Source: Hyalangium gracile
GTDB lineage: Bacteria; Myxococcota; Myxococcia; Myxococcales; Myxococcaceae
Direction: 5' to 3'
DNA length: 64,000 bases
Assembly (NCBI RefSeq): GCF_020103725.1
Contig: NZ_JAHXBG010000007.1
Span: 124,001 to 188,000, forward strand
The notes below the pieces were generated by a model. That model was not told the DNA's origin. It saw only the letters and a program-made list of their open reading frames with translations, and made no database searches. Positions 54,638 through 60,852 of this stretch are shown here, piece by piece. Each line of letters begins with the position of its first letter. Position 1 is the stretch's first letter. The translations under genes were made by a program, and so were the position numbers.

Positions 54638-55489
54638 CTACTCCGCGAGCGTCCCGAGCTTCTGGGGGGTGGCCAGCGTCAGCTTCTCGGTGCGCAGCGG
54701 GAGCGCATCGTCACGCAGATTGAGCGGCTCGTGCATGATGGCGCCCGGGATCCGGTCGGGGAAGCGGTTCGGATTCGGGGCCAGCTGGGTGCCCGGCTTG
54801 CCGTGGCGAGCCAGGTCGCGGTCGGCCGCGTCGAGCTTGCGCTCCAGCGAGCCTTCCTTGTTCAGGGGCTTCTTGTCGAAGAGGGTGTCGAGCTTGTCGC
54901 CGCCGAGGGAGGGGCCGCGGGCCTCGGAGATGTCGGCCTGCTTGCCGAGCAGCTTGGAGGCCTCGGAGTTGGTGATGTTGCCGTTGGAGATGCCCTCGGC
55001 CAGCGTGTCGATCTGACCGGCCTGGCGGGAACCGTCCTCCTCCTTCAGACGGATGCCCAGGTCCGGGATGCCCTTCTCGCCGGCTTCCGAGATGTTCATG
55101 CCGGCCAGGGTCTGCATCAGGTTGAGCTTGCGGCGCTCATCGAGGCTGAGCTTGCCGTCGGCCACGGCGCTCCGGGTGGCATCGGAGATGCCCTGCTGCT
55201 CGGTGAGCAGCTTCTGGGACTCGCCGGCGGAGATGGTGCCGTTGCGCACGCCATCGGCGATCTGGTTCAGCTGGTTGCTCTGGGTGGCGTCCACGCCGCG
55301 CTCGCCCAGGGGGCGCTTGTCGGAGAAGGAGTCGATGAGGGAGTGGCCGGCGAGCTTCTTCTCGGCGAGGGGCTTGGTGAAGATGGCCGCCTCGAGGCCC
55401 TTGGCGGGCACGGCCTCGGCGGTGGGCTGGGAGGCGGGGGTCGTCGGGGCCGGGGGAACGAGGTTCAGGGCGGGGTTGGCAATGCGCAT
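54638..55489 (-). CDS. Hypothetical protein with internal helical repeats, sigma-54 controlled
   Basis: 283 residues from ATG 55489 after CAGGAGCC. No signal peptide. The N-terminus is Pro/Ala-rich (LNLVPPAPTTPASQPTAEAV). Two similar repeats of about 50 residues follow (NQLNQIADGVRNGTISAGE... and GQIDTLAEGISNGNITNSE...), with an EF-hand-like loop ADGKLSLDERR between them. I do not know its function. It has the same kind of start and the same promoter architecture as the gene at 55825-56940, so both should be expressed together. Confidence 0.78.
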   Translation of the reverse strand: MRIANPALNLVPPAPTTPASQPTAEAVPAKGLEAAIFTKPLAEKKLAGHSLIDSFSDKRPLGERGVDATQSNQLNQIADGVRNGTISAGESQKLLTEQQGISDATRSAVADGKLSLDERRKLNLMQTLAGMNISEAGEKGIPDLGIRLKEEDGSRQAGQIDTLAEGISNGNITNSEASKLLGKQADISEARGPSLGGDKLDTLFDKKPLNKEGSLERKLDAADRDLARHGKPGTQLAPNPNRFPDRIPGAIMHEPLNLRDDALPLRTEKLTLATPQKLGTLAE

Positions 55490-55546
55490 GACGAGGCTCC
55501 TGGGAGAGACCGACGGGAGGGGTCGGTGAGTACGGGCAGTCTCCAC

Positions 55547-55562
55547 TGCACCCGGTGTGCCA
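55547..55562 (-). promoter_or_regulatory. Sigma-54 (-24/-12) promoter of the 283-aa gene
   Basis: On the minus strand TGGCACACCGGGTGCA has GG and GC separated by 10 bases, the invariant elements of sigma-54 promoters (consensus TGGCACG-N4-TTGCA). It lies about 60 bases upstream of the start codon. Confidence 0.8.
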
Positions 55563-55674
55563 CCAGATGCAGCAGGGGCGCCGGGCGGCTGTGCTCCAGT
55601 CGTTTCCAGCAGTTATGCGCTCACCCTCGCCAGGCGGCGGAGCGCGGGTGACGGCGCTCACCGGGCTGCCCTGG

Positions 55675-55706
55675 TGACGGCAGTCATTCTCTGATGACAG
55701 CCGTCA
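55675..55706. promoter_or_regulatory. Tandem TGAC-N4-GTCA enhancer sites, pair 1
   Basis: Two palindromes, TGACGGCAGTCA (55675-55686) and TGACAGCCGTCA (55695-55706), with centres exactly 20 bp apart. They are about 125-155 bp upstream of the -12 element, the typical position for a sigma-54 activator. A third, imperfect copy TGACGGCGCTCA lies at 55649-55660. Between 55490 and 55824 nothing else is recognised. Confidence 0.75.
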
Positions 55707-55824
55707 CCGCCAGCACCTGGGAGCGGTGCGCAGGCGCGGTGTGAGCTGAACTCCCGCAATAGCTCGGGGGCTGCGGAGCCCTCTACGAGCTCACGCAGCC
55801 CCCGTGGACATCATCGTTGCCGCC

Positions 55825-56940
55825 TTACTTCTTGCCGGCGCCCATCACGGTCGACAGCTTCAGCTCCTCGGGGCTCAAGCCCCACTGCACGATCGACAGG
55901 CCGCCCGCGGTCTGCTTTCCGCTGTGGGTGGCCGCCAGCTCATGAGGCTCGAACTTCTGCAGGGCCCACGACCCATTCTGCTGCTTGACGTACATCTCGA
56001 GCGGCCTGGTGGGGTCGACCGCGCTGGACGGGAACGGCTGATGGGTCCGCAGGTGCTGCTGGACCGCGTTGGTTCCCCCGACGATCTCGTTGCCGTTGCG
56101 CAGCGAGCCCGGGCGCAGGCCCCCGGCCTGTTCGATCTGCTCCAGCCGGCCCTGCTTGCTCGTGTCGGTGGCCAGCGTGTAGCGCCGCTGCGCGTCCATC
56201 TGGCTCTCGAGCCCGGTCCGCTGTGTCTTCAGCGTGTCGAGCTGCTGCTTCTGGGGGTTCTGGGCCTCCCACTGCTTGATCATGGGGCCCAGCTCCTTCC
56301 TCGGCACGCCCTGAGCCACCAGCTGCTGGGTGTACGCCTGGCGCTGGCTCTTCAGCGCCGTCTCCGCCGTGCTGATCTGCGAGGTGAGCTGCTGATGATG
56401 GGTGGTGAGCTGCTGCCACTGCTGGGGTTTGGCGCCCACGGGCATCTTGTTGTCGCCCCCCGTGAACTCGGAGAAGTAACCCTTCGACTTCAGCTGGTCG
56501 AAGTTCTCATTTCCAAGGTTCTTCCTCCAGTCGGCCTCGTTCCAGCCGGCCTTGTCGCCCTTCTGCAGCGTCTGCTTCTGCTCAGGGGTGAGGTTCAGAT
56601 TGGGGGGGGTGGCGTCCAGCTTGGTGGGGCGCGCGTACGAGTAGTCGATCAGGTGGACGAGGCCCTGGTTGCGCCCGGCGCCGTTGGTGTTCCATTGGTT
56701 GAGCGCCGCCTGCTCCTGGGCCTTCCGGTCGAAGTGGCTGTTCAGGTGCGAGTAGTTGCCCTGGAGCTTCCCGGGCTGAGGCGTCCGGACCGACTGCGTC
56801 GGGACCTGCTGCGTGACGTTCGGCAGCTGTGGGGTGGTCGGGGAGCGGGGCGAGGGAGGGGCGCTGCGGGGCGGGGTGCCCGTGGGCCGGGGCATCGACA
56901 ACGAAGGCAGCGAGTTCGAGCGGAGGGGACGCATCTTCAT
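55825..56940 (-). CDS. Hypothetical protein with Pro-rich start and long coiled region, sigma-54 controlled
   Basis: 371 residues from ATG 56940 after CAGGAGCC. A Pro/Arg/Ser-rich N-terminus of about 55 residues (PTGTPPRSAPPSPRSPTTP) has no signal peptide. A region rich in Gln, with a likely coiled coil (about 185-270; LTTHHQQLTSQISTAETALKSQ, QQLDTLKTQRTGLESQ), follows. The C-terminus (GNEIVGGTNAVQQHLRTHQPF, WALQKFEPHELAATHSG) resembles no family known to me. Same promoter form as the 283-aa gene. Confidence 0.78.
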   Translation of the reverse strand: MKMRPLRSNSLPSLSMPRPTGTPPRSAPPSPRSPTTPQLPNVTQQVPTQSVRTPQPGKLQGNYSHLNSHFDRKAQEQAALNQWNTNGAGRNQGLVHLIDYSYARPTKLDATPPNLNLTPEQKQTLQKGDKAGWNEADWRKNLGNENFDQLKSKGYFSEFTGGDNKMPVGAKPQQWQQLTTHHQQLTSQISTAETALKSQRQAYTQQLVAQGVPRKELGPMIKQWEAQNPQKQQLDTLKTQRTGLESQMDAQRRYTLATDTSKQGRLEQIEQAGGLRPGSLRNGNEIVGGTNAVQQHLRTHQPFPSSAVDPTRPLEMYVKQQNGSWALQKFEPHELAATHSGKQTAGGLSIVQWGLSPEELKLSTVMGAGKK

Positions 56941-56977
56941 GGGCGGGCTCCTGAGGGCCTGAGGTGTCCGCCTGTAG

Positions 56978-56993
56978 AGCATCGCTCGTGCCA
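56978..56993 (-). promoter_or_regulatory. Sigma-54 (-24/-12) promoter of the 371-aa gene
   Basis: On the minus strand TGGCACGAGCGATGCT has GG and GC separated by 10 bases and matches the consensus TGGCACG perfectly in the -24 half. The start codon is about 38 bases downstream. Confidence 0.82.
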
Positions 56994-57080
56994 ACCCCTG
57001 CGTGTCTTACAGTGTCACGCAAATCCATGGATTTCGGGTGCTTGCATGATTCGCCGACGGGCCCGGGCTGGCTCGCACGG

Positions 57081-57112
57081 TGACTGCGGTCATCAACTGG
57101 TGACGGCGGTCA
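57081..57112. promoter_or_regulatory. Tandem TGAC-N4-GTCA enhancer sites, pair 2
   Basis: Palindromes TGACTGCGGTCA (57081-57092) and TGACGGCGGTCA (57101-57112) have centres exactly 20 bp apart, as in pair 1, and lie about 100-130 bp upstream of the -12 element of the 371-aa gene. Confidence 0.75.
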
Positions 57113-57216
57113 TCAGGCCCCGAGCGGCGCGAACAGCGTCACGCCCCAGCGGGACTGCACTCCGCGTCTTCACCGTTGCCATGCACGAGGTGCTCGAGGT
57201 GCCTTTGAAGGCCCCG

Positions 57217-59352: not shown

Positions 59353-60852
59353 ATGGGGAAGAAGCGACCCAAGCAGGAAGTGGATCCACTCTTCCTGCCA
59401 GTGGGGATGCGGGTGGGGGAGTGGCGGGTGCAAGGGTGGAGAGGCCGGGGCGCCTACGGCACGCTCTACCGAGTGGAGCGGGTGGGGCAGGAGGCAGCTG
59501 GCTCGTTTGCGCTCAAGCTGGCCACCCATCCTCGGGATGAGCGCTTCGAACGCGAGGCCTGGCTGCTGTCGCGCATCCAGAGCCCCCATGTGCCCCGGTT
59601 CCTGGGGCAGGGTGTGTGGGAGCACGCCTGTGGAGCCTTCCCGTACGTGGTGATGGACTGGGTGGAGGGAGAGACGCTGTACGAGTGGGCCGAGAGGCGC
59701 AACCCGACGTGGCGCCAGGCGGCGAGGCTGCTGGCGCAGGTGGCACGGGCGCTGGAGGCCACGCATGCGGTGGGAGGACTGCACCGGGATGTAAAGGGTG
59801 AAAACGTGCTGGTGAGGCCCGCGGATGGGCGGGCCTTTCTGACAGACTTCGGTGCGGGGCACTACCGAGGTGCGGCCACGCTCACAACGAAGTTGCTGCC
59901 TCCGGGCACGCCCGCCTACCGCAGCCCCGAGGCGCGGGGCTTTCTGCGCGTGTTCCTGCGCCACCCGACGGCGCACTATCCGGCGAGCGCGTGTGATGAC
60001 TTGTTCGCGCTGGGAGTCATGGCCTACCGACTGGTGACGGACGAGTACCCGCCGTCCACACGCCCCGAGGAGAGCGGCTCCGAGGTGTGGAGTGCGAACG
60101 GGCCGGGACCGCGCCCACCGCGCGAGCTCAACCCGCGAGTGCCCCTTGAGCTGGATGCGGTCATCCAGCGACTGCTTGCCATCGCCCCGGAGGAGCGTTT
60201 TGGAGGCAGGGCGAGGGATGCCGCCGAGGCGCTGGAGCAGGTGGCGGAGAGTGCGGAGGCTGAGGCGGAGGGCCCGTTGTTCTTCTGGGGGGATGAGCAA
60301 CGCCCGCGCCTGCGTGCTCCCGGGAGTGTGCGGCGGGCTGAGCTGCAGGACGCCTCTGCGAGGGAGAGAGCGCTGCGCGGAGCGGGTGCGCGGAGTGAAG
60401 CGGAGGCCCACCGGGAGCAGGCTGCGCCGCAGCGCTGGGAACCGGTATGGGGAGTGGAGATGGCGGTGGCTCTGCTGGGACTATTGCTCGCGGCGCTATC
60501 CGTGGCGTTGCTGTACCGTGGGCAGGGACTGGCCGGGATGGCTTCAGCGATAGTGTCACCGAAGGGAGAGCGCGTGGCGGTAGGCGATAGCATCACTCCC
60601 TCTGCGACGCTCGCCCCCATGCGCAGTCACGAACTGCCATCGGCGATCGGGCTGGCGCTGCCCGAGAAGCCCTTTCCCGGTCAGCGTACGCCTCCGTGCA
60701 CCCGGTATGGCGAGGTGGAGATCCGTGGCGGTTGCTGGTACCGCCTGGGTGATGCCCCAGCGCCGTGCAAGGAGGACGCGTACGACTGGAGGGGAGCCTG
60801 TTACCTGCCGTCGTATCCACCTCGGCGCCCGTCTGCGTCCGGGACTCCGTGA
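59353..60852 (+). CDS. Membrane Ser/Thr protein kinase, copy 2
   Basis: 499 residues, exactly the length of copy 1 at 20473. Kinase motifs GRGAYG, FALKLA, HRDVKGENVL, TDFGAG and RSPEARG are all identical in form. Differences cluster in the linker (about 310-370) and the membrane segment; the extracellular Cys domain (TPPCTRYGEVEIRGGCWYRL, DYDWRGACYLP-like ending) is again conserved. The pair probably arose by duplication and may sense the same or related signals. Confidence 0.93.
   Translation: MGKKRPKQEVDPLFLPVGMRVGEWRVQGWRGRGAYGTLYRVERVGQEAAGSFALKLATHPRDERFEREAWLLSRIQSPHVPRFLGQGVWEHACGAFPYVVMDWVEGETLYEWAERRNPTWRQAARLLAQVARALEATHAVGGLHRDVKGENVLVRPADGRAFLTDFGAGHYRGAATLTTKLLPPGTPAYRSPEARGFLRVFLRHPTAHYPASACDDLFALGVMAYRLVTDEYPPSTRPEESGSEVWSANGPGPRPPRELNPRVPLELDAVIQRLLAIAPEERFGGRARDAAEALEQVAESAEAEAEGPLFFWGDEQRPRLRAPGSVRRAELQDASARERALRGAGARSEAEAHREQAAPQRWEPVWGVEMAVALLGLLLAALSVALLYRGQGLAGMASAIVSPKGERVAVGDSITPSATLAPMRSHELPSAIGLALPEKPFPGQRTPPCTRYGEVEIRGGCWYRLGDAPAPCKEDAYDWRGACYLPSYPPRRPSASGTP

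Follow-up and report, generated by a model that had tools for sequence, protein, structure and literature searches.

Paired TGAC-N4-GTCA operators upstream of sigma-54 promoters: a proposed regulon of effector-like proteins under FHA-domain activators in Myxococcaceae

Results and Discussion

Two genes in a 64-kb stretch of the 11.7-Mb genome of Hyalangium gracile, family Myxococcaceae (C7:124001-188000, the whole of which is here called the window), are each preceded by a sigma-54 (-24/-12) promoter core and, further upstream, by an operator composed of two TGAC-N4-GTCA palindromes. We propose, with a probability of around 0.72, that these paired operators are enhancers for an FHA-domain activator of sigma-54, and that they would govern a regulon of effector-like proteins exported during predation. 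The operators and promoters, their phasing, the association with FHA-activators, the N-terminal bias of the proteins and the effector-type domains of some of them can be read in the sequences themselves.

Operators and promoters in the window

The promoter core of gene 1, GTGGCACACCGGGTGCA (55547..55563, - strand), scores 15 of 17, and that of gene 2, TTGGCACGAGCGATGCT (56978..56994, - strand), 16 of 17. Both fit the TGGCAC-N5-TTGC type with the GG-N10-GC spacing originally noted for them; with both strands of the 64 kb scored, only eight segments reach 14.5 or more, these two included. Operator 1 (55672..55709, - strand; dyads at 55675-55686 and 55695-55706) is located 111 bp before its core, and operator 2 (57078..57115, - strand; dyads at 57081-57092 and 57101-57112) 86 bp before the other. 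The dyad centres (55680.5/55700.5 and 57086.5/57106.5) are exactly 20 bp apart in both pairs, as had been noticed, and the pair centres lie 129 bp (gene 1) and 104 bp (gene 2) from the GG of the -24 element, within the approximately 80-150 bp upstream anticipated for paired dyads. An imperfect third dyad, TGACGGCGCTCA (55649..55660, - strand), was read directly in the sequence 26 bp from the next one.

These four sites are the only occurrences of TGACN4GTCA in the window, where 0.66 would be expected. When the whole genome was searched allowing one mismatch, the tandem pair was found in these two places alone and the reversed pattern, which served as control throughout the motif searches, in none, in agreement with the original view that chance is very unlikely. 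A longer form of the operator, with up to three mismatches, added two further places, both before related genes (one thaumatin-like, on C2, the other a paralogue of gene 1, on C9) and with the same upstream architecture; the control again gave 0.

Gene 1 (54638..55489, - strand, ATG at 55489) encodes 283 amino acids (MRIANPALNLV...) and gene 2 (55825..56940, - strand, ATG at 56940) 371 amino acids (MKMRPLRSNSLPSL...), each ATG being preceded by AGGAG at 7 nt. The product of gene 1 has around 60 disordered N-terminal residues followed by two similar helical repeats; in that of gene 2 the first 70 or so residues are disordered and rich in Ser, Pro and Arg, and the middle is a coiled coil. Pfam and PDB searches returned no known domain or relative for either product, and single-sequence AlphaFold gave low-confidence models with no confident fold.

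Conservation of the operator across the family

In a survey of 96 Myxococcaceae genomes, the tandem pair was present in 44 and the control in 0, as in the H. gracile genome, so that the pair is not equally common at random positions, a possibility raised together with the original prediction. In a phylum sample of 195 genomes, the longer form with up to two mismatches appeared in 28, all from six Myxococcaceae genera, and in 0 of the 99 not belonging to this family (control 0). The averaged full site reads TGGTGAC-N4-GTCACCA-N2-TGGTGAC-N4-GTCACCA, with a two-base linker, and nearly all sites carry the flank GG[T/C]GAC. Within 250 bp downstream, a sigma-54 core scoring at least 14.5 of 17 was found for 96 of 114 distinct sites, versus 56 of 705 random windows. 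The gaps between dyad and promoter cluster near 54, 66, 76, 87, 99, 110 and 123 bp, repeating roughly every 11 bp (Rayleigh R=0.73, n=93), and phasing persisted when one site per gene group was kept (26 groups; R ~0.74, p ~7e-7). The gaps of 111 and 86 bp in the window match two of these modes. Rarity in the genome, recurrence in 44 of the 96 genomes, promoter association and phasing strongly support common sigma-54/enhancer control of both genes, as first suggested.

Among the relatives found, only the sister genome G041 has close orthologues of both genes (57% for gene 1, 78% for gene 2), located there on separate contigs, C4 and C46 of that genome. The operator and the sigma-54 core are kept before each, with gaps of 111 and 86 bp, and the core of the gene 1 orthologue is the same. 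Gene 1 also has diverged paralogues, and 15 of the 96 genomes have a match to it; gene 2 has its orthologue in G041 only.

Two other explanations of the paired dyads lose ground on these data. The first is that the pairs are functionless and arose by chance or by local copying of one upstream region, in favour of which the two sites are just 1.4 kb apart. However, the coding sequences and flanks of the two genes are unrelated to each other, and 44 genomes carry this element in front of unrelated genes, the control giving 0. Because G041 keeps both operators at unlinked genes, simple local duplication is excluded, and we consider this explanation as a whole to have a negligible probability. The dyads could instead be sites of FNR/CRP-type regulators such as HcpR, since the TGACN4GTCA core is identical to that in the consensus TTGACN4GTCAA (PMC1274295). 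That reading is very improbable and was rejected on the flank mismatch: the conserved flank is GG(T/C)GAC, not TTGAC, and the sites do not follow TTGACN4GTCAA. Moreover, the pairing at 20 bp, the presence of sigma-54 cores and the helical phasing are unlike an FNR site, redox genes were not found downstream, and FHA-activators adjoin the sites.

FHA-domain activators

Genes for FHA-domain sigma-54 activators adjoin several operators, often beside a Ser/Thr kinase gene, whose product carries TPR repeats in the example scanned. The activators beside operators join FHA and sigma-54 AAA+ domains to a Fis-type helix-turn-helix (HTH), which changes the activator type from NtrC, as originally predicted, to FHA. 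Profile matches for the protein encoded at L257:7749-9125 were FHA (2.8e-12), Sigma54_activat (1.7e-64) and HTH_8 (7.4e-4, just under the cut-off). Its N-terminal domain fits the model of the cytoplasmic domain of SctD, from the type III secretion system (T3SS; PF16697, 2.3e-25), better than it fits FHA.

The recognition helix IDRVYLRKLL was found near TGGTGAC or TGATGAC operators at 13 loci, and paralogues with IDRFYLRKLL are adjoined in 5 of 5 cases by TGGCRAC operators of the same architecture. The H. gracile genome encodes four activators with closely similar HTH (at least 82% identity), on C2, C4, C9 and C1; C7 has none. The activator of the window operators is likely to be an FHA-domain enhancer-binding protein with IDRVYLRKLL in its HTH, and the V-type activators on C4 and C2, which have this helix, are the leading candidates to supply this function in trans; the one on C9 is of the F type. 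Several activators are found in islands together with kinase and effector-like genes. In the C4 island, the kinase and activator genes are accompanied by genes for an SLT transglycosylase, for a thaumatin-like protein and for a C39-like peptidase, and the Myxococcus island L272 comprises a kinase, an activator, a C39-like peptidase and a Peptidase_M91 (M91; XopG/HopH-type) gene preceded by a sigma-54 core and a tandem operator.

According to our model, each palindrome pair would be an enhancer operator bound by a dimeric FHA-domain activator. Two helical turns separate the dyads of a pair, and the operator, upstream of the -24/-12 promoter, keeps to a constant face of the helix. Since the activators carry an FHA domain, their input is more likely to be Ser/Thr phosphorylation than a two-component receiver, and the island layout, with the kinase next to the activator, leads us to propose that this kinase probably signals to the FHA domain. 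A Ser/Thr kinase gene is also present in the window (59353-60852, + strand) near both genes, with no evidence of a link to either.

Regulon proteins and their possible export

Approximately 97 genes located downstream of operators fall into 23 sequence clusters. Their products are unrelated to one another and mostly lack Sec signals; domains found among them include Peptidase_M91 ('Effector protein'; NCBIfam XopG/HopH), SLT, calpain C2, thermolysin, pectate-lyase-like beta-helix, thaumatin/Asp f 4-like and C39/C70-like. Hydrophobic N-terminal stretches are rarer than in the background (3/92 versus 132/724 proteins), with an excess of Ser, Asn, Ile, Pro and Thr at the N-termini. These were compared with the rule described for type III substrates of Pseudomonas syringae, which combines a Ser-rich N-terminus, an aliphatic residue or Pro at positions 3-4 and no acidic residue in the first 12, and which is not strictly required for secretion (PMC3338616). 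With members bearing Sec signals and cytosolic members removed beforehand, 60 of 82 regulon proteins follow the rule, versus 85 of 720 in the background (p=5e-32). In addition, a D-[GSA]-F motif follows the disordered N-terminus, at residues 25-95, in 41 of 92 regulon proteins versus 34 of 724. Of the original suggestion that the two products are secreted or developmental, secretion is plausible, now more specifically as non-Sec, effector-like proteins, and a developmental role finds no support here.

Of the M91 genes found by protein rather than by motif, 20 had sufficient sequence upstream to be scored, and in every one a sigma-54 core reached at least 14. Few of them carry the TGGTGAC tandem (three, at L280, L298 and L301) and one, at L281, has a TGGTAAC version, so that the TGGTGAC operator is one of several. 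Tandem TGGTAAC versions with the same 20-bp architecture were seen upstream of sigma-54 cores at L281 (upstream of 10001) and L271 (near 12942). The L280 record (BNCN01000009.1), titled Comamonas sp. KCTC 72670, holds a Myxococcus-type M91 gene with core and tandem operator and is probably mislabelled or contaminated.

As a route of export we consider the needleless T3SS (T3SS*) of the T3SS*/Kil prey-killing machinery of Myxococcus xanthus, whose effectors were reported as unknown up to 2025 (PMC10433427, PMC12075869). A 521-amino-acid protein encoded at L179:14579-16144, beside sctV in a T3SS cluster, has near-identical repeats and a regulon-like N-terminus (TRINQPSPAV...RDGF); its gene is without a sigma-54 core. 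On sequence evidence, use of the T3SS* by the regulon products is about an even prospect, if slightly on the doubtful side. Binding, the kinase link, export and this route are steps that we infer.

Several results weigh against the proposal as a whole. T3SS export genes (SctV) occur in 94 of the 96 genomes, usually in two copies, and because they are near-universal their co-occurrence with the operator is uninformative and yields no signal. The tandem operator (up to three mismatches) is absent from the seven T3SS cluster loci scanned, which rules these clusters out as its direct targets, and no such FHA-activator is present in the cluster stretches scanned. The excess for the N-terminal rule is smaller when counted by independent cluster, with a majority passing in 9 of 23 (2.7 expected). 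Genes 1 and 2 each fail one part of the three-part rule: the N-terminus of gene 1 has Ile3 and no acidic residue but only 2 Ser in 50, and that of gene 2 is Ser-rich with no acidic residue but has K-M-R at positions 2-4 (M3/R4). Ordinary Sec signals are carried by a few members, in the alpha-lytic protease group. Finally, the F/V correlation in the recognition helix may reflect a single evolutionary change, since the five IDRFYLRKLL loci are orthologues.

Some of these results would also be expected if the same sigma-54/FHA-activator regulon had products other than type III substrates, delivered by type VI secretion or the Kil/Tad pilus, or kept inside the cell as, for example, starvation or spore proteins. 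This explanation is a substantial competitor, although we consider it somewhat less than evenly probable. It is favoured by the missing operator in the scanned T3SS clusters, by the Sec signals or LysM/MshEN domains of some members, and by the lack of needle and secretin in the T3SS* of M. xanthus (PMC10433427). It fits less well with an N-terminal pattern that matches type III substrates specifically, with the presence of XopG/HopH (M91), a type III effector family, and with the T3SS cluster of G038, where a protein whose N-terminus is of this style is encoded next to sctV. Our preferred reading is that the regulon products, which are diverse, mostly lack Sec signals and have type III-like N-termini, would be effectors exported during predation.

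Comparison with known systems

M. xanthus has sigma-54 enhancer-binding proteins with FHA domains, reportedly known through development mutants, as described by Jelsbak et al. in 2005. They share the architecture of FHA, sigma-54 AAA+ and Fis HTH with the activators described here, and the operator, effector-like regulon and island layout were not found in the literature searched. Plant pathogens control their type III effectors through the Hrp system, in which HrpR/S are sigma-54 activators; points of likeness are that such activators stand above effector expression in the regulatory chain and that there is an XopG/HopH-type effector. There, sigma-54 acts through HrpL (PMC5263251), whereas here a sigma-54 promoter stands directly at each effector-like gene. 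The Nla28 regulon, also from a myxobacterium, has tandem operators upstream of sigma-54 promoters (PMC7910581, PMC9765219), but its half site, CT(C/G)CG(C/G)AG, and its targets differ from those of the operator described here, which was rejected as an Nla28 site on the half-site difference. The likeness to the T3SS*/Kil of M. xanthus lies in the possible export route and in the SctV genes of these genomes, the regulon proteins being candidates only for its effectors.

Concluding remarks

As a broader and more tentative proposal, a family of FHA-activators with slightly altered tandem operators (TGGTGAC, TGGCRAC, TGGTAAC) could run islands of kinase, activator and effector genes in predatory myxobacteria, the operator marking substrates of a needleless T3SS* used in prey lysis. 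The operator motif picks about two dozen unrelated effector-like families, and thus offers a short list of candidates for T3SS*/Kil effectors. The paralogous FHA-activators and their matched operators constitute a natural set with which the rule of DNA recognition and the proposed signal from kinase to FHA domain would be directly testable.
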